From positions 124,001-188,000 of the forward strand of contig BMVA01000009.1 of the NCBI GenBank assembly GCA_014650475.1: a DNA stretch of 64,000 nucleotides. The letters are read 5' to 3'. Numbering within the stretch: position 1 is the stretch's first letter; every line of letters begins with the position of its first letter. The position numbers and the translations under genes were made by a program. Below, piece after piece: positions 6,006-13,044 of the stretch. The notes beneath the pieces were generated by a model. It was not told the origin of the DNA, searched no databases, and saw only the letters and a list, made by a program, of their open reading frames with translations. The stretch comes from Streptomyces albogriseolus. GTDB lineage: Bacteria > Actinomycetota > Actinomycetes > Streptomycetales > Streptomycetaceae.

Positions 6006-7253
6006 ATGCATCCGATGCTCAAGCCCGCCCTCAGGCGCGGCTGGCGGGACCGCAACACCGTGCAGTTCGGGATGACGCCGGCCCAGGCGTTGACCCTGGG
6101 TCCGGTGGACACGGCCACGGGCAGCCTGCTGGAGCTGCTCGACGGCACGCGGGGAATGGAGCTGCTGCGCGAGGAGGGCCGGCGCATGGAGCTGCCCGAC
6201 GGTCACGTCGACCGGCTGGTGCGACGGCTGTCACGGGCGGGGCTGCTGGACGACTCCCGGGGCGGCGGGCCGGCCGCCGACGCCCTGCGCGGAAGACCCG
6301 AGGTGCTGGACCGGCTCCGCCCGGACTGGGCCTCGCTCGGTCTGACCACCGCCGGGCCGGGCGACCCGCTGCGGGTGCTGGCGGCGCGGCGGAGCATGCG
6401 GGTGCAGGTCAGGGGCGTGGGCCGGGTGGGGGCTGCGGTGGCGGCGCTGCTGTCGGCGGCGGGCGTCGGCGAGGTCGAGGTGCGGGACGTGGGCCGGGTG
6501 GAGCCGTGGGACGTGGCGCCGGGCGGGCTGCCGGCCGAGGCGGTCGGCGAGCGCAGGGAGGAGGCGGCCCGCCGCGTCGTACGCCGGTGCGCGCCAGACC
6601 GCCCTCCGCGCGGCACGGCCCGCTCACCCCTGTCCGAGGACGTCACCGGCCACTCCCTGGTGGTGCTCGCCCCGCGGGACGACGTCGCCGTGCACGCGCC
6701 GGACCCGGTGTCCGCCGAACCCCTCCTGGCCTCAGGCACCCCCCACCTCCATGCCGGCGTGGTGGAGGGCACCGGTGTGGTCGGTCCACTGGTCCTTCCC
6801 GGCGAGACGGCGTGCGCCGGCTGCCTCCAGGAGGACCGGATCGACCGGGACCCGGCGTGGCCGCGGCTCGTGGCCCAGTGGCGCTCGGGCCGGCAGCGCC
6901 GGGTGGGCGCCTGCGACCTCACACTGGCCGCGACCGTCGCGGGGCTCGCCGCCGCCCATGCGCTGGCCTTCCTCGACGGACGGGTCCCGTCCGCCGCGGG
7001 CGCCCGCTGGGAGGTCTCCCTGCCGCAGCTGCACTGGCAGCCGCGGCCCGTCGTGCCGCATCGCCGCTGTCCGTGCGGGGCCGCGGACGCCGGCCCGGAC
7101 GCCGGTGAGGGAGGCCCGGAGAAAGGTAAGGGAGAACACACCTCCGCCGACGGGGGGTCGCACGAGACAATGGCCGGGCACGGGCCGTCGAAGGAGTCGC
7201 GCCGTCAGGCGGACGCGGAGCGGCCGGCAGGGACCTGGAGGGCGCATGTCTGA
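6006..7253 (+). CDS. ThiF/cyclodehydratase-like adenylyltransferase-fold protein
   Basis: 415 residues from ATG 6006, preceded by GGGGGT. The N-terminal 120 residues resemble the leader-peptide-binding part of azole/TOMM cyclodehydratase partner proteins. The remainder is ThiF/E1-like, with a degenerate nucleotide-binding region (RGVGRVGAAVAALLSAAGVG) and zinc-type cysteines in CAGCLQEDR and RCPCGA. There is no YcaO, precursor peptide or transporter nearby, so it looks like an orphan conserved in Streptomyces rather than part of a peptide cluster. The C-terminal 60 residues are charged and low-complexity. Its stop overlaps the AarF start by 8 bp, so the two are probably co-translated. Confidence 0.75.
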   Translation: MHPMLKPALRRGWRDRNTVQFGMTPAQALTLGPVDTATGSLLELLDGTRGMELLREEGRRMELPDGHVDRLVRRLSRAGLLDDSRGGGPAADALRGRPEVLDRLRPDWASLGLTTAGPGDPLRVLAARRSMRVQVRGVGRVGAAVAALLSAAGVGEVEVRDVGRVEPWDVAPGGLPAEAVGERREEAARRVVRRCAPDRPPRGTARSPLSEDVTGHSLVVLAPRDDVAVHAPDPVSAEPLLASGTPHLHAGVVEGTGVVGPLVLPGETACAGCLQEDRIDRDPAWPRLVAQWRSGRQRRVGACDLTLAATVAGLAAAHALAFLDGRVPSAAGARWEVSLPQLHWQPRPVVPHRRCPCGAADAGPDAGEGGPEKGKGEHTSADGGSHETMAGHGPSKESRRQADAERPAGTWRAHV

Positions 7254-8613
7254 TCTTCCCCGCAAGGCGGTCACCCGCACCGCCAAGCTGGCCGCGCTCC
7301 CGCTCGGCTTCGCCGGGCGGGCCACCTGGGGACTCGGCAAGCGGATCGTGGGCGAGTCCGCGGAGCTGGTCGGCCGGGAGCTCCAGCAGCGCACCGCCGA
7401 CCAGCTGTTCAAGGTGCTGGGCGAGCTCAAGGGCGGCGCCATGAAGTTCGGCCAGGCCCTGTCGGTCTTCGAGTCGGCCCTGCCCGAGGAGGTCGCCGGC
7501 CCTTACCGCGCCGCCCTGACCAAGCTCCAGGAGGCCGCCCCGCCGATGCCGACCCGCACGGTGCACGCGGTGCTGGAGGAGCGGCTGGGCAAGGACTGGC
7601 AGGAGCTGTTCCGGACGTTCGACGACAAGCCGGCCGCGGCGGCCTCCATCGGCCAGGTGCACCGGGCGGTGTGGCACGACGGCCGTGAGGTCGCGGTCAA
7701 GGTGCAGTACCCCGGCGCCGGTGAGGCCCTGCTGTCCGACCTCAACCAGCTCAGCCGCTTCGCACGGCTGCTGGGCCCGCTGATCCCCGGCATGGACGTC
7801 AAGCCGCTCATCACGGAGCTCAAGGACCGGGTCTCCGAGGAGCTGGACTACGGCCTGGAGGCGCAGGCGCAGCGGGCGCACGCGGAGGAGTTCGCCGGCG
7901 ACCCGGACGTGGTCGTGCCGGACGTGGTGCACCAGTGCGATCAGGTGCTGGTCACCGAGTGGATGGACGGCACGCCGCTGTCGGAGGTCATCGCGGACGG
8001 CACAGAGGAGCAGCGCGACCGGGCCGGACAGCTTCTGGCCCGTTTCCTGTTCTCCGGTCCCGCCCGCACCGGTCTGCTGCACGCCGACCCGCACCCGGGC
8101 AACTTCCGTCTGCTGCCCGGAGGCCCCGGCGGCGAGGACGACTGGCGCCTGGGCGTCCTGGACTTCGGCACGGTCGACCGGCTCCCGGGCGGGCTGCCCT
8201 CCCCCATCGGCGAGGCGCTGCGGATGACGCTGGACGGCGAGGCGGGGGCCGTCTACGAGATGCTGCGCGCGGAAGGCTTCGTCAAGGAGTCCGTCGAGTT
8301 GGACCCCGACGCGGTCCTCGACTATCTGCTGCCGATCATCGAGCCGGCGCGGGTCGAGGCGTTCACCTTCACCCGTGGCTGGATGCGCAGTCAGGCGGCC
8401 CGGATAGCGGACGTCCGGTCCCCCGCCTACCAGTTGGCCAAGCAGCTCAATCTTCCGCCGGCCTATCTGCTGATCCACCGGGTCACGCTGAGCACGATCG
8501 GTGTGCTGTGCCAGCTCGGGGCGACGGTGCGGCTGCGGGAGGAACTGGAGGACTGGCTGCCGGAGTTCGTCCCCGGGGAGCCGGGCGAGGAGGAGGAAGC
8601 GGCGCAGGCCTGA
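7246..8613 (+). CDS. ABC1/AarF/UbiB-family atypical kinase
   Basis: 455 residues from ATG 7246, with GGAGG five bases upstream. ADCK/UbiB hallmarks are present: KxGQ motif in LKGGAMKFGQALSVFE, Ala-rich nucleotide loop AAAASIGQVHRAVW, the invariant lysine in VAVKVQYPG, the catalytic segment HADPHPGNFRLL and the metal-binding LDFGTVDRL. UbiB proteins support isoprenoid-lipid (quinone) biosynthesis; Streptomyces makes menaquinone, so the exact role is open. In M. tuberculosis the homologue Rv3197 lies next to whiB7, as here, and has been linked to macrolide tolerance (from memory). Overlaps the ThiF-like gene by 8 bp. Confidence 0.9.
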   Translation: MSDLPRKAVTRTAKLAALPLGFAGRATWGLGKRIVGESAELVGRELQQRTADQLFKVLGELKGGAMKFGQALSVFESALPEEVAGPYRAALTKLQEAAPPMPTRTVHAVLEERLGKDWQELFRTFDDKPAAAASIGQVHRAVWHDGREVAVKVQYPGAGEALLSDLNQLSRFARLLGPLIPGMDVKPLITELKDRVSEELDYGLEAQAQRAHAEEFAGDPDVVVPDVVHQCDQVLVTEWMDGTPLSEVIADGTEEQRDRAGQLLARFLFSGPARTGLLHADPHPGNFRLLPGGPGGEDDWRLGVLDFGTVDRLPGGLPSPIGEALRMTLDGEAGAVYEMLRAEGFVKESVELDPDAVLDYLLPIIEPARVEAFTFTRGWMRSQAARIADVRSPAYQLAKQLNLPPAYLLIHRVTLSTIGVLCQLGATVRLREELEDWLPEFVPGEPGEEEEAAQA

Positions 8614-8661
8614 CCGCACGCGGGCGGCCGGGCGGCGTGGGGTCCAGCGCGGCTGCGAGGT

Positions 8662-8868
8662 TCACCACCACTGCGAGTCGAGGCGGCCCTCGATCGCCCG
8701 CAGGTTCTCGCGGGAGCAGCGCTCGCAGTAGTGCAGGCGGACGCCGTTTTCCACGGAGAGGGTCCAGGTCGGCGGCGGACCGTCGGCGCGGACACCGCAG
8801 CGGGCGCAGACCGGCGGCTCGGGCTCCGTGGCGGAGCCCTCGTCGCCGCCTTCATGAGGACTGGTCAC
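8662..8868 (-). CDS. Small zinc-ribbon-like conserved protein
   Basis: 68 residues from GTG 8868. Two CxxC pairs, CARCG (residues 21-25) and CERC (residues 48-51), could bind one zinc ion; the end is DSQWW. No known function. Converges on the AarF-like gene (48-bp gap). It lies downstream of the hairpin at 8914-8953 and therefore needs its own promoter in the 45 bp between hairpin and start, or read-through. Confidence 0.7.
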   Translation of the reverse strand: MTSPHEGGDEGSATEPEPPVCARCGVRADGPPPTWTLSVENGVRLHYCERCSRENLRAIEGRLDSQWW

Positions 8869-8913
8869 GCGGCGACGATAACTCCGCGCGGAGGGTGCCG
8901 AGCCGTCAACGCA

Positions 8914-8953
8914 CCGCGGGGGCCGGTCCGTTCACACGGACCGGCCCCCGCGG
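8914..8953 (-). terminator. Rho-independent-like terminator after wblC operon
   Basis: Perfect 18-bp stem (8914-8931 with 8936-8953) and TCAC loop, GC-rich and without a U-tract, as is common in Streptomyces. It lies 50 bp past the stop of the gene following wblC. Confidence 0.8.
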
Positions 8954-9002
8954 GGAGATCGGGGCCTCCAGCTGGGGAGGCCGTCGCTTCAGGCGGCGTG
9001 CC

Positions 9003-9326
9003 CTACTGCATGACCGCCATGGCGAGCGCCCGGCGGGCGCGCCGCGAGGCGCGCTCGGCCCGGCGCTGCATCCGGCGCGCGGTCAGCAGGCCGTTGGCCT
9101 GCCTCTCCCGCCGCGCCTCCTGCAGTCGGTCGTGCATATGCGCACGAGCCAGGGCTTCTGGGATGAGTTGCATCTCTCGGGTCCTGTTCTGGCGCGAGTC
9201 GTTCGCACCGCTGGTGAGGAAGTCTTCGGTCGCGGAGCCTGCGGGCTCGTGGGTGGACGGCGTCATCGGGGCCTGCTTCTGGGGGTCGTGCGTGAGGGGG
9301 CGGTCGATCGTTCCGGGGGTGTTCAT
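9003..9326 (-). CDS. Small basic protein translationally coupled to wblC
   Basis: 107 residues if translation starts at ATG 9326, which overlaps the wblC stop as ATGA. Residues 1-51 are Pro/Thr-rich and weakly constrained. The C-terminal 56 residues, from a second ATG at 9173 (MQLIPEALARAHMHDRLQEA), form a strongly basic Arg-rich helix with an ERASRRARRALAMAVMQ end, and this part looks like the conserved Streptomyces protein. Either start is possible. Function unknown; the arrangement suggests co-induction with WblC. Confidence 0.65.
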   Translation of the reverse strand: MNTPGTIDRPLTHDPQKQAPMTPSTHEPAGSATEDFLTSGANDSRQNRTREMQLIPEALARAHMHDRLQEARRERQANGLLTARRMQRRAERASRRARRALAMAVMQ

Positions 9327-9688
9327 GCCGAGACCGGGTTCTTGCGCGGGCGGCCACGCGGCCGCTTCCGGGCGACGACCACACCCTGGACGAACAGCTC
9401 GCCACCCCAGACGCCCCAGGGCTCACGCCGCTCCTTGGCGCCGGCGAGGCAGGCCTCGACCAGCGGGCAGGTACGGCAGAGGGACTTGGCGTACTCGACG
9501 TCCGCGGGCGACTCGGCGAAGAAGACCTCCGGGTCGTAGGAGCGGCACGGGACGGGTACGCCCAGGTTCTCGATGGCGTCGTCGAGCGCGGTGAGCGCGG
9601 TGAGCGGAGTCAAGGTCGGGTCCTCCGTGGAGCCGGGCTTGGGGATGTCGGAAGGCGGTACGGACGGGGCGTGCGCTTCGAGTTGCAC
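9323..9688 (-). CDS. wblC: WhiB-family regulator WblC (WhiB7)
   Basis: 121 residues from GTG 9688. The four Fe-S cysteines are C48, C71, C74 and C80 (CRTCPLVEAC), followed by the G[VI]WGG turn (WGVWGGE) and a C-terminal AT-hook RPRGRPRKN at residues 109-117. The AT-hook identifies the WblC/WhiB7 subgroup. WblC binds the principal sigma factor and activates promoters with an AT-rich box next to the -35, controlling intrinsic resistance to ribosome-targeting antibiotics and redox-linked genes. Its 5' leader (about 590 nt) carries an upstream ORF and attenuator, described separately. Overlaps the downstream gene by 4 bp. Confidence 0.95.
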   Translation of the reverse strand: MQLEAHAPSVPPSDIPKPGSTEDPTLTPLTALTALDDAIENLGVPVPCRSYDPEVFFAESPADVEYAKSLCRTCPLVEACLAGAKERREPWGVWGGELFVQGVVVARKRPRGRPRKNPVSA

Positions 9689-9802
9689 GGCTGGTCTTCC
9701 TCGTCTGGTCGTTTCCGGCCGGTCGGCCGGGTGTGCGGCTGGTACCGGGTTCTTTTCTTGTCCCGAGGCGCCTTGTCCTGTCTCCCCGTTCGGGCAAACA
9801 GA

Positions 9803-9837
9803 AGGGCCGCGGATCCCGGATGGGGTTCCGCGGCCCT
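9803..9837 (-). terminator. wblC leader attenuator hairpin
   Basis: Transcribed from the minus strand, the leader forms a perfect 11-bp GC stem (9827-9837 pairing with 9803-9813; 13-nt loop) followed by UUCUGUUUG. It lies 22 nt past the stop of the 105-codon upstream ORF and about 115 nt before the wblC start, the position expected for a conditional terminator. A second hairpin, GCCTGAT/ATCAGGC (9848-9864), spans the upstream ORF stop codon and may be part of the switch. Confidence 0.8.
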
Positions 9838-9858
9838 GAAGGCGCCGGCCTGATCACA

Positions 9859-10176
9859 TCAGGCTGGATCGCTCCAGGGTTCTGGCCCACGGAAGGCCCA
9901 CATCAGGTGGTGCTGCGTCGTCTGCTTCCGGAATCCGGCACCGGCCGCCGCAAAGGCATAGGCCTGCGCCTGTGCCACTACTGCTGCTTCCAGTGCCTTG
10001 GTCGGTCGCTCATCGCGCTCACGGACGGCAAGGCCCGCGGGAGCGAGGGAGGACGCCGGACGGACGGCACGAATGCCGGACACACCGGTGCCCTGGTTCG
10101 AGGCGCCGAGCATGCACAGGGAGACGGCCGAGCGATCGGTCAGTTTGACGCTGGTGCTGGTGTTGATGCTGATCAC
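9859..10176 (-). CDS. wblC upstream ORF (regulatory leader ORF)
   Basis: 105 codons from GTG 10176. A consensus AGGAGG (10185-10190) sits 8 nt upstream, so it is almost certainly translated. The product has no recognisable domain, is rich in Ala/Ser/Arg, and ends HLMWAFRGPEPWSDPA; the Trp-Pro-rich end recalls the conserved end of mycobacterial whiB7 leader ORFs. It lies inside the wblC leader, just before the attenuator hairpin. Expected role: translation state, sensitive to ribosome inhibitors, decides between termination and read-through. The peptide itself may have no function. Confidence 0.8.
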   Translation of the reverse strand: MISINTSTSVKLTDRSAVSLCMLGASNQGTGVSGIRAVRPASSLAPAGLAVRERDERPTKALEAAVVAQAQAYAFAAAGAGFRKQTTQHHLMWAFRGPEPWSDPA

Positions 10177-10285
10177 TGGACTCGCCTCCTCTCGGCGTCT
10201 AGGGGACCGGGCGAACCGGTCCGCGGATATGCAAGTACAACACGGAATCAGGGCCTCCGAGAAGGCCGCTGTCCCCGTGGCTAAG

Positions 10286-10324
10286 AACCTATGGGGATTC
10301 CCGGGGCATGCGCAAACTATTTTT
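10286..10324 (-). promoter_or_regulatory. Putative autoregulated wblC promoter
   Basis: Read on the minus strand: an AT box AAAAATAG (10317-10324), a -35-like TTGCGC (10310-10315), an 18-bp spacer and a -10-like TAGGTT (10286-10291). An A/T tract directly beside the -35 is the known signature of WhiB7/WblC-dependent promoters, including its own. Predicted transcript start is near 10279, about 100 nt before the upstream ORF. Confidence 0.6.
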
Positions 10325-10338
10325 CCGACGAGTTCACG

Positions 10339-12549
10339 TCAGTCCTGATCTTGTCCCTCGGCCGGGTCCTGGCCTGCGCAGAGGGCCAGCACATCGGCGC
10401 CGTAACGGCGCAGCTTGCGCATGCCCACCCCGGGAATGCGGGCCAGTTCGTGCTCGTCGTCGGGGACCGCCTCGGCGATGGCGATCAGCGTCTTGTCGGT
10501 GAAGACGCAGAAGGCCGGCTGGCCGCTGCGCCGCGCCTGCTCGCCGCGCCACTCGCGCAGCCGCTCGTACAGTCCCTCGTCCATGTCGGAGGGGCAGTCC
10601 TCGCAGCGCATCAGTTTCATCTCGCCGCCGTCGGTCAGCGTGCGGCCGCAGACACGGCAGCGGGCGGGAGTGCGCTGCCGGCGGCGCGGCGCCTGCTCGG
10701 GAACCGCGGTGGCCGCCGCCGTCCAGGAGCCGCGCTCCACTCCTCCCGCGCCGGCCGCGCCCGCGCGTCCCGCGCCGGCCTGCGAGCCGGGGCGCAGTCC
10801 CGTGAGGAAGCGGCTGGGGCGCCGGTTCGGGCGGCCGCCCGGGGAGCGGGCGAGCGCCCAGGACAGGTGGAGGTGCTCGCGGGCGCGGGTGACGCCGACA
10901 TAGAGGAGTCGGCGCTCCTCCTCGATCTGCTCGTCCGTCTTGGCGTAGGTGATCGGCATCATGCCTTCGGCGACTCCGACCAGGAAGACGACGTCCCACT
11001 CCAGGCCCTTCGCCGCGTGCAGCGAGGCGAGTGTGACGCCCTGGACCGTGGGGGCGTGCTGGGCCCCGGCCCGCTCGTCGAGTTCGACGACGAGGTCGGC
11101 GAGCGTGGCGCCGGACCTGGCGGCGGTGAAGTCCTGAGCGAGGTGCACCAGGGCGGCCAGGGACTCCCAGCTCTCCCGGACCGCGCCCGACCCGGCGGGC
11201 GGCTGGGGCGTCCAGCCCTTGCCGGACAGCACGGCCCGCACCTGGGAGGGCAGGTCGGGGGCGTCGTCGAGGAGCGCGTCGTTGCCGCCGAAGCGGGCGG
11301 CGGCGCGCAGGGCGTTGATCGCGTTGCGCACCTCGGGACGGTCGAAGAACCGCTCGGCTCCGCGCAGCTGGTAGGGCACGCCCGCGTCGGCGAGGGCCTG
11401 CTCGTAGGTCTCGGACTGGGAGTTGGTGCGGAACAGGACGGCGATCTCGCTCGCCGGGACGCCCGAGTCGATCAGCTCACGGATGCGGCCGGCGGCGCCC
11501 TCGGCCTCGGCGGGCTCGTCGGTGTACTCGGTGAAGACGGGCTCGGGTCCCGCGGGGCGCTGGGAGACCAGCTCCAGCCGGTGGTCGGCGGCGCGGCCCT
11601 TCGCCTGGGCGAGCAGGCCGTTGGCCAGGCGCACCACCTGGGGGGTCGAGCGGTAGTCGCGGACGAGCTTGACGACGGTGGCGCCCGGGTGGCGGATGCG
11701 GAAGTCGAGCAGATGGTCCGGGGTCGCGCCGGTGAAGGAGTAGATGGTCTGGCTGGCGTCGCCGACCACGCACAGGTTCTCCCGGTCGCCGAGCCACAGC
11801 TCCAGCAGGCGCTGCTGGAGGGGGCTGACGTCCTGGTACTCGTCGACGACGAAGTGCTGGTACTGCGCCCTGACCTGCTCGGCGATGTCGTGCCGGTCCT
11901 GGAGGACGGCGACCGTGAGCAGCAGGACGTCCTCGAAGTCGATGACGGAACGCTCGCGCTTGAGGTCCTCGTAGGCGGCGTAGAGCTGGGCGATCTCGGC
12001 GGGGTCGCGGGGGGCTTCCCGGCTGGCCTTGGCGGCCGCGGCCGTGTAGTCGGCGGGGACGGTCTGGGTGACCTTGGACCACTCGATCTCGGCGGTGACG
12101 TCCCGCAGCTCGCCCCGGTCCAGGCGGATCCGGCAGGCGGCGGCCGCGTCGGCGACCAGCTGGATCTTGCGGTCGACGAGCCGTGGCAGGGTTCCGCCCA
12201 CCGCCTTGGGCCAGAAGTACTGGAGCTGGCGCAGGGCCGCGGAGTGGAACGTCCGCGCCTGGACGCCCACCGCGCCGAGCTGGCGCAGCCGGCCGCGCAT
12301 CTCCCCCGCCGCGCGGTTGGTGAACGTGACGGCGAGGACGCTCGAGGGCTGGAGGATCCCGGCGCGCACCCCGTAGGCGATGCGGTGGGTGATGGCCCTG
12401 GTCTTGCCGGTGCCGGCGCCCGCCAGCACGCACACCGGTCCGTGCAGGGCGGTGGCCACGGCGCGCTGCTCGGGGTCGAGACCTTCGAGCACCGCGTCGG
12501 CCGAGTCCGGTACCCGCGGGAAGAGGGTGGAGTGCGTTGCTGCTGTCAC
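10339..12549 (-). CDS. uvrD2: ATP-dependent DNA helicase UvrD2
   Basis: 736 residues from GTG 12549. SF1A helicase: Walker A AGAGTGKTRAITH near the N-terminus, DEYQDVSPLQQ Walker B/motif II, QTIYSFTGA motif III, and VTRAREHLHL motif VI. A tetracysteine module (CRVCG ... CEDC) is followed by a C-terminal HRDC domain ending near GVGMRKLRRYGADVLALC. This helicase-4Cys-HRDC arrangement is that of mycobacterial UvrD2, which also neighbours whiB7 and mrx1. Role: 3'-5' DNA unwinding in repair or replication. Divergent from mrx1. Confidence 0.92.
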   Translation of the reverse strand: MTAATHSTLFPRVPDSADAVLEGLDPEQRAVATALHGPVCVLAGAGTGKTRAITHRIAYGVRAGILQPSSVLAVTFTNRAAGEMRGRLRQLGAVGVQARTFHSAALRQLQYFWPKAVGGTLPRLVDRKIQLVADAAAACRIRLDRGELRDVTAEIEWSKVTQTVPADYTAAAAKASREAPRDPAEIAQLYAAYEDLKRERSVIDFEDVLLLTVAVLQDRHDIAEQVRAQYQHFVVDEYQDVSPLQQRLLELWLGDRENLCVVGDASQTIYSFTGATPDHLLDFRIRHPGATVVKLVRDYRSTPQVVRLANGLLAQAKGRAADHRLELVSQRPAGPEPVFTEYTDEPAEAEGAAGRIRELIDSGVPASEIAVLFRTNSQSETYEQALADAGVPYQLRGAERFFDRPEVRNAINALRAAARFGGNDALLDDAPDLPSQVRAVLSGKGWTPQPPAGSGAVRESWESLAALVHLAQDFTAARSGATLADLVVELDERAGAQHAPTVQGVTLASLHAAKGLEWDVVFLVGVAEGMMPITYAKTDEQIEEERRLLYVGVTRAREHLHLSWALARSPGGRPNRRPSRFLTGLRPGSQAGAGRAGAAGAGGVERGSWTAAATAVPEQAPRRRQRTPARCRVCGRTLTDGGEMKLMRCEDCPSDMDEGLYERLREWRGEQARRSGQPAFCVFTDKTLIAIAEAVPDDEHELARIPGVGMRKLRRYGADVLALCAGQDPAEGQDQD

Positions 12550-12665
12550 ACCGCCATGCTGCCAGGTCGCCCGGGACGGGTGAGCCGGTTGTCCACAGGG
12601 AAGGGCTCATGGTCGTACGAATGCGACAAGCGTCACGGCACCGGCCACCGGGCCGGGGTGGCGGC

Positions 12666-12692
12666 GGGAATGCCTGCGCTTTCAAGTACGTT
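12666..12692 (+). promoter_or_regulatory. SigR-type promoter for mycoredoxin
   Basis: GGGAAT (12666-12671), an exact 18-bp spacer and GTT (12690-12692) match the SigR (SigH-like) thiol-stress consensus GGAAT-N18-GTT. It lies 50 bp before the mrx1 ATG, a target one would expect for this regulon. Confidence 0.75.
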
Positions 12693-12741
12693 CCCCCGGA
12701 GACCGACAACTTCCCCGAGCCGCCGAAGGAGCGCGAGAGGC

Positions 12742-12984
12742 ATGCAGGGCACTGTGACGATGTACAGCACCACGTGGTGCGGCTACTGCCGCCGGCTGAA
12801 GAGCCAGATGGACCGTGAGGGCATCGCGTACACCGAGATCAACATCGAGCAGGACCCGGAGTCGGCCGCCTTCGTGGAGAAGGCGAACGGCGGCAACCAG
12901 ACGGTGCCCACCGTGCTGTTCCCCGACGGTTCGACGCTGACCAACCCCTCGCTCGCGCAGGTGAAGCAGAAGATCGGCGTCTGA
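12742..12984 (+). CDS. mrx1: Mycoredoxin (glutaredoxin-like)
   Basis: 80 residues from ATG 12742 (AAGGAG about 10 nt upstream). Thioredoxin-fold protein with the active site TWCGYCRRLK (C14/C17 region) and the conserved TVPTVLFPDG cis-Pro loop. Matches the actinobacterial Mrx1 group, which reduces mycothiol mixed disulfides; the M. tuberculosis homologue sits at the same place beside uvrD2. Likely induced by disulfide stress through the SigR-type promoter at 12666-12692. Cytoplasmic. Confidence 0.9.
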   Translation: MQGTVTMYSTTWCGYCRRLKSQMDREGIAYTEINIEQDPESAAFVEKANGGNQTVPTVLFPDGSTLTNPSLAQVKQKIGV

Positions 12985-12999
12985 GCGTTCCGCGGACGC

Positions 13000-13044
13000 A
13001 CGAAGCGGGCGGCCGTCCCTCACGGGACCGGCCGCCCGCTTCGT
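13000..13044. terminator. Bidirectional terminator between mrx1 and nudC
   Basis: 16-bp perfect outer stem (13000-13015 with 13029-13044) plus an inner GTCCC/GGGAC extension with a one-base bulge. Lies between the convergent mrx1 and nudC stops. Confidence 0.8.

Follow-up and report, generated by a model that had tools for sequence, protein, structure and literature searches.

The wblC leader of this Streptomyces albogriseolus contig is in all likelihood an attenuator that depends on translation of an upstream open reading frame (uORF). The earlier note on the same DNA had proposed a WblC/WhiB7 leader of this kind, and the parts, their conservation and their covariation support it; the AT-box promoter, the AGGAGG, the 105-codon ORF, the stop hairpin, the 11-bp terminator and the wblC GTG were all present, within 2 bases of where it had placed them. 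The reading draws here on these parts, on their conservation, on the geometry of their overlap, and on covariation, which was seen in the terminator, in the stop hairpin and in a portion of the antiterminator; premature transcript ends in living cells, a response to antibiotics or starvation, and autoregulation would be expected by analogy with published work on relatives. This genome would then carry a published antibiotic-sensing switch with all its parts, maintained by selection, and the base-level coordinates of both competing folds make it easy to test. All coordinates are those of the window, i.e., the whole stretch of 64,000 nt that was analysed, and every feature located below lies on its minus strand.

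Layout of the wblC locus and its 5′ leader

The uvrD2-type helicase gene (10339-12549) was recognized by the Pfam domains UvrD-helicase, UvrD_C and HRDC, all above cut-off. The wblC gene (9323-9688, with its GTG at 9688) encodes a WhiB7-type regulator of 121 amino acid residues with a Pfam Whib match of 54.5 bits, and the AT-hook in its product scored 15.7 bits, which is under the Pfam cut-off. From the end of uvrD2 (10339) to the wblC GTG (9688), the promoter, the Shine-Dalgarno (SD) sequence, the uORF, the stop hairpin and the terminator follow each other in this order, and the gene directly downstream of the leader is the one with the Whib domain (WblC/WhiB7). Among 150 genomes of the genus, including that of the window, 148 gave one WblC match each. 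Comparison of positions 7000-13000 with Rfam 15 gave no match at E up to 1. The leader as a whole (10326-9796) is common to the sampled Actinomycetia and without an Rfam match, and the leader model R1 could seed a family.

Two further ORFs were observed beyond wblC. The first, of 107 amino acid residues (9003-9326, directly downstream of wblC), had no Pfam or NCBIfam match and gave tblastn matches in 110/110 Streptomyces loci, with 61-100% identity over 80-110 residues; judged by these matches, it is a conserved unnamed wblC neighbour. The second, of 68 residues (8662-8868), carries two CxxC pairs, is zinc-ribbon-like and had a tblastn match in 87 of the 110 loci, a count in which some of the remaining loci may simply end too early.

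For comparison, 110 Streptomyces loci (L002-L111) were used, which include the window's own copy and hold 107 distinct uORF sequences; 80 named Streptomyces loci were among those fetched, and L112-L136 were fetched and left out of every count. As outgroups, 52 regions were taken from Actinomycetia of other genera and families; they were picked among good WblC matches, not at random. The 110 Streptomyces loci are related to each other, and the covariation shuffles reported below ignore this kinship.

A WblC-type promoter was located at 10286-10326, with the AT-box GGAAAAATAG at 10326-10317, the -35 element TTGCGC at 10315-10310, the -10 element TAGGTT at 10291-10286 and a spacer of 18 bp. The consensus of WblC-activated promoters quoted from PMC7157823 (GAAAWY, 3 bp, TKGMNN, 16-19 bp, TANNNT) is fitted by this promoter, with 5/6 positions of GAAAWY (one mismatch) and the 18-bp spacer. 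By the rule in the same excerpt (7-8 bp past the -10 element), transcription is predicted to start at 10278. With a loose AT-box/-35/-10 pattern, each of the 110 Streptomyces loci gave a single match and 44/52 outgroup regions were matched, both counts being without chance control; a strict pattern (TTTGCGC plus TANNNT) matched 99/110 Streptomyces loci.

A hairpin close to the 5′ terminus of the leader (10241-10279) was predicted from the minimum-energy fold of 10282-10177, the z of the whole stretch being only -1.14. A second hairpin, GGACCGG/CCGGTCC (10204-10222), was found between the start site and the SD by a per-sequence stem search. A stem of at least 6 bp was obtained here in 98/110 loci versus 55/110 mononucleotide-shuffled ones, which is a high control, and compensated arms were observed: GGACTGG/CCAGTCC (30 loci), GGACCGG/CCGGTCC (15 loci) and GGATCGG/CCGATCC (3 loci). 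It is followed by the CGCCGAGAGGAGGCG element (10183-10197), which contains the SD AGGAGG (10190-10185) and is identical in 110/110 loci; because its pairs never vary, they give no test of pairing. The hairpin at 10222-10204 and the CGCCGAGAGGAGGCG element may tune initiation of the uORF. When RNAalifold was run on the whole leader and on the 5′ leader, the 5′ part yielded essentially only the invariant SD element, a poor result owing to the gapped alignments. A second small 5′ ORF (TTG start, peptide MLYLHIR...) was rejected; its frame length ran from 10 to 133 codons among the loci listed.

The uORF itself (9859-10176) has 105 codons, from the GTG at 10176 to the TGA at 9859, and stands after the consensus SD AGGAGG. 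A uORF after AGGAGG was found in all 110 Streptomyces loci, with 88-119 codons, a start codon of GTG in 104 and ATG in 6, the stop codon TGA throughout, and 115-197 nt between its end and wblC. In 49/52 outgroup regions (3 with a weak SD only), an SD-led uORF ended 9-29 nt before a GGCCGCGG-type terminator; the exceptions were L152, in which an SD-led uORF was missing, and L176 and L183, in which a terminator was missing by the pattern used. Stricter SD and length rules left 45/52 outgroup regions. The earlier note had pointed to conservation of the uORF frame and hairpin in relatives as a check, and both were borne out, the hairpins covarying as described below. As a whole, the uORF did not fold unusually (z +0.61).

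Terminator and proposed antiterminator as competing folds

The intrinsic terminator is a stem of 11 bp plus an inner 3 bp (9803-9837), followed by the interrupted U-tract UUCUGUUU (9796-9803), with similar tails in the leader alignments. Its fold energy was -30.2 kcal/mol versus -15.0 +/- 2.9 for shuffles (z -5.2; 0/200). Across the class, 98.2% of cells in 59 leaders were paired, 6 of the 13 pairs had changes on both sides, and 34 cells were changed on both sides versus 9.4 +/- 7.9 when shuffled. A simple terminator scan did not list this terminator and listed one other site, which does not exceed the 0.9 expected by chance; the miss is probably due to the 13 nt enclosed by the stem, as the loops of the scan were limited to 3-8 nt. 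Upstream of the terminator, a hairpin of 7 bp with the loop GUG spans the uORF stop codon (9848-9864); changes on both sides were found in 7/7 of its pairs, with 77.6% of cells paired in 53 sequences.

The earlier note had called for prediction of alternative folds, and an antiterminator was predicted, in which 9894-9887 and 9879-9872 pair with 9841-9826. Arm A1, UUCCGUGG, lies at 9887-9894 (codons 95-97), and arm A2, CCCUGGAG, lies at 9872-9879 (codons 100-102); class-wide, 69.7% and 78-80% of their cells were paired, respectively. A2 pairs with arm B2, CUUCAGGG (9834-9841), and arm B1, CCGCGGAA (9826-9833), either pairs with A1 or enters the terminator stem; both B arms were derived from the fold and from pair counts. 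In the predicted structure A2:B2 is nested within A1:B1, and the stop hairpin stands in the loop. This was the minimum-energy fold of 9903-9826, i.e., of the transcript while the terminator is still unfinished, although its z was only -1.78 and 12/200 shuffles folded equally well. The 5′ arm of the terminator (9837-9827) lies within the B arms of the antiterminator (9841-9826), so that the two folds are mutually exclusive.

Covariation was scored for the antiterminator together with the stop hairpin: 82 cells were changed on both sides versus 35 +/- 7.5 shuffled, and the score was 0.209 versus at most 0.088 in any slid register. In the outgroup leaders L168 and L189, A2:B2 had swapped letters (CCUCGAG with CUCGAGG), and in L184 (family f4), whose uORF peptide is unrelated to the Streptomyces one, A1:B1 was formed by GUCCGUGG and CCACGGAC. 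The longest arm match averaged 7.6 nt versus 5.9 nt in shuffles; however, only 9/45 outgroup leaders beat their own shuffles at 5%, and cognate arms were barely above swapped arms (7.6 vs 7.18 nt). As judged from these alignments, the evidence for the antiterminator is collective, not per leader. Separately, it was observed that the leaders of L138 and L171 (both of family f33) and of L184 are off the class consensus and without a CCTGGAG arm in the alignment, which suggests lineage-specific antiterminators.

A covariance model of the leader was built without 6 of the 59 rows (L138, L171, L177, L178, L186 and L187). In the 8.07-Mb genome it gave one strong match, of 96.5 bits, among 15 matches in total at E up to 1, and the next match (32.1 bits) was the opposite strand of the same site. 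In the phylum, 36/296 genomes had a match at E 0.001 or better, a figure not usable as a census, and many of the weaker matches were judged by score to be other GC-rich terminators or opposite-strand matches.

Since the terminator is strong on its own, it could be taken for an ordinary constitutive one in a leader without conditional control, wblC being transcribed from another promoter. This is extremely improbable, given that the mutually exclusive pairing is conserved, that the uORF ends 24-29 nt before the terminator arm in 42/49 outgroup leaders, and that conditional termination is published for wblC/whiB7 leaders in the passages available from PMC11550727, PMC13393426, PMC10727445 and PMC7157823.

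Attenuation that depends on translation of the uORF was examined with a simple footprint model of our own choice, in which the ribosome covers 18 nt upstream and 14 nt downstream of the first A-site base. With the A site on the uORF stop codon, the ribosome covers 9879-9847, starting exactly at A2; A2 is thus fully masked and one of the two helices is hidden. Both arms are free when the A site is at codon 90 or earlier. A ribosome with its A site at codons 92-94 blocks A1; further along, at 96-102, it obstructs the two arms at least partly, and at 104-106 it blocks only A2. It follows from this coverage that finished translation should terminate transcription and that slow or absent translation should allow read-through, and it was assumed that a ribosome between the arms blocks a helix that would bridge it.

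In the proposed course of events, RNA polymerase would start near 10278 and a ribosome would translate the uORF behind it. Timely arrival of the ribosome at the uORF stop would hide A2, 9837-9827 would pair with 9813-9803 as the terminator, and transcription would end near 9796 with a leader RNA of ~480 nt. Translation that lags, or that halts no later than about codon 90 (through a ribosome-targeting antibiotic, an uncharged tRNA or failed initiation), would leave A1 and A2 free to pair with B1 and B2, and the polymerase would read through into wblC, whose product would then reinforce its own AT-box promoter.

The equilibrium folding model backs only part of this switch scheme. Without a ribosome and with 150 nt of upstream RNA, the arm pairing of the window was 0.94 versus 0.29 +/- 0.27 for shuffled uORF ends, 2/300 of which were as high. 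Random synonymous uORF ends still gave 0.69 +/- 0.23, and 13/300 matched the real one; the peptide sequence alone thus brings much of the pairing. The ribosome-free pairing depended on the length of upstream RNA included, with 0.15 for 90 nt, 0.75 for 120 nt and 0.94-1.0 for 150-320 nt. When a ribosome occupied the stop, the pairing dropped from 0.94 only to 0.66 at 150 nt, as the model still allows A1:B1, and in longer contexts it changed from 1.0 to 0.81 (200 nt) and from 0.99 to 0.56 (320 nt); 54/110 loci kept an arm pairing of at least 0.5.

The earlier note had further supposed that stalling on the Trp/Pro end of the uORF, HLMWAFRGPEPW, could matter, and one might go on to regard a drug-dependent arrest of the nascent peptide at this Trp/Pro-containing, strongly conserved end as the sensor. 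The claim found no support, and such an arrest is very unlikely. An A site at codons 96-102 covers both arms at least partly and should favour termination. What is conserved is the nucleotide sequence: the two TGG codons as well as GCC94 and CCC100 were found in 110/110 loci, and the most variable codon of the segment in Streptomyces was 98 (CCA/CTC/CCT), which lies within the bulge between the two helices. Moreover, the end peptide differs in most regions from other families, often being ...WSPPV*, and part of the pairing persists. Because the segment holds A1 and A2 and is hidden in part by the ribosome, it is better read as the antiterminator arm, and a stall site there was rejected.

Codon usage and the alanine-rich tract of the uORF

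In a normal coding gene, the third codon position varies most freely. In the 103 loci from which all three genes were recovered, this protein-coding pattern was observed for wblC (0.15/0.10/0.45 bits at the three positions) and for the end of uvrD2 (0.36/0.41/0.94 bits), whereas the uORF gave 0.48/0.52/0.49 bits. The even spread was also found in 65 gap-free uORF columns (0.37/0.38/0.36 bits, 110 loci), and codons 1-91 only gave 0.55/0.59/0.54 bits (110 loci).

These values bear on whether the uORF encodes a conserved functional microprotein, with the terminator merely separating it from wblC. Frame, start and stop are kept in 110/110 loci, and the C-terminus is close to MWAFRG(P/L)EPWSDPA throughout the Streptomyces loci, as such a product would have it. 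The even variation over codon positions is, however, unlike that of wblC and uvrD2; its C-terminal segment falls on the antiterminator arms and is a different peptide in most regions from other families; and no Pfam or NCBIfam family was found for the product. A microprotein is accordingly a highly improbable explanation.

The uORF also stood apart in its choice of codons. In columns with the amino acid conserved in at least 85%, the mean share of the commonest synonymous codon was 0.96 for the uORF (44 columns), 0.90 for wblC (104 columns) and 0.76 for uvrD2 (64 columns), and GC3 was 0.76 for the uORF versus 0.89-0.90 for the comparison genes. Rare codons made up 18/105 (17%) of the window's uORF versus a median of 4% and a maximum of 9.9% in 39 CDS-like ORFs of the window, a contrast that is somewhat exaggerated because this background, also used for alanine, was picked by GC3 of at least 0.85. 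Several A/T-ending codons were nearly fixed, namely GGT31 (110/110), CGA57 (109), AAA11 (107), and GCA61, TAT73 and GAT14 (104 each).

An alanine-rich tract was located at codons 61-80 (9937-9996), with 11/20 Ala and the rare codons GCA at 61, 64, 65 and 68, GTA at 66, TAT at 73 and TTT at 75. A content of 11 Ala per 20 residues was found in 0/16,168 twenty-residue windows of the 39 background ORFs. Across the 110 Streptomyces uORFs, over which alanine and codon counts are not independent because the loci are kin, the richest 20-codon window held 7-12 Ala (median 10) and started 43-46 codons before the uORF end in 95/110. At least 10 Ala in a 20-codon window were reached by 65/110 uORFs versus 0/142 pieces of 105 codons from window ORFs; these control pieces had 5 Ala at the median and 9 at most, and 28/142 reached 7. 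From 45 to 14 codons before the uORF end, the Ala share was 31.5% in Streptomyces, compared with 11% in wblC and the uvrD2 end, and it was 20% in the 45 outgroup uORFs kept under the stricter rules, so that the tract is less pronounced outside Streptomyces. It precedes the codon-90 limit and thus stands where a stall would free the antiterminator.

A tentative reading, on balance doubtful, is that selection acts on the codons in the body of the Streptomyces wblC uORF and not on the peptide that they encode. Slow, rare A/T-ending codons and the alanine tract ~10-30 codons before the antiterminator arm would then make it a deliberately slow, alanyl-tRNA-sensitive reporter of translation, and wblC would be switched on by shortage of alanine or of tRNA-Ala(UGC) besides drugs, as is reported for mycobacterial whiB7 but via an unrelated uORF sequence. 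Mycobacterial whiB7 is reported to respond to ribosome stalling and to be required under alanine starvation (Burian and Thompson 2018 and Poulton 2024, as cited by others); its role in alanine starvation is cited in passages from PMC10727445 and PMC13236596. That Streptomyces wblC would respond to alanine or tRNA-Ala is on these grounds a reasonable prediction and no more. In the excerpts of the literature searched, with Lee 2022 and Poulton 2024 outside the search, no alanine tract was mentioned for the wblC uORF of Streptomyces, and a search combining whiB7, uORF and alanine-rich gave no match. The alanine-rich, rare-codon tract would be a concrete reason for the length of the uORF, and through it the alanine supply of antibiotic producers could be tied, in a way open to testing, to their intrinsic resistance.

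Comparison with known systems

Attenuation in the wblC leader of Streptomyces coelicolor was described by Lee, Lee and Roe 2022, as cited in passages from PMC11550727, PMC12421871 and PMC7157823. According to these citations, that leader likewise has a uORF, a Rho-independent terminator, an antiterminator and an autoregulated promoter, and it responds to translation inhibitors and to amino-acid starvation; the element in the window is very probably its orthologue. As the mechanism is already published for wblC/whiB7, the finding is in this respect an ordinary one. The less expected features are those of the uORF body, namely the low variation at third codon positions, the share of rare codons and the alanine-rich tract retained among the Streptomyces loci. 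The coordinates of both folds, the Trp/Pro segment as an RNA arm, the codon constraint with the alanine tract and the compensated 5′ hairpin come from this analysis, with overlap with Lee 2022 possible.

The mycobacterial whiB7 leader is built alike in the portion seen of Dinan 2014 (PMC4128351), with an SD-led uORF, a stem-loop with a U-rich tail and a drop of reads after the uORF; the distance from start site to gene is ~350 nt there and ~590 nt here. The Streptomyces ARE ABCF genes are5sc and tiaA, in the text available from PMC12421871, are also controlled by a uORF with an antibiotic-responsive terminator/antiterminator switch. Stalling occurs at the start codon of their uORFs, which are 3 and 9 codons long, whereas the uORF here has ~105 codons and a broad response is cited for wblC.

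Amino-acid attenuators have a short leader peptide with few regulatory codons, whereas the output here is a resistance regulator. The trp attenuator belongs to the same class of amino-acid biosynthesis attenuation as ilvB1. The ilvB1 attenuator, as described in the passages available from PMC13236596, resembles the proposed wblC switch in that the position of the ribosome picks the terminator or the antiterminator, and in that the latter is masked when a ribosome stands on the stop codon.
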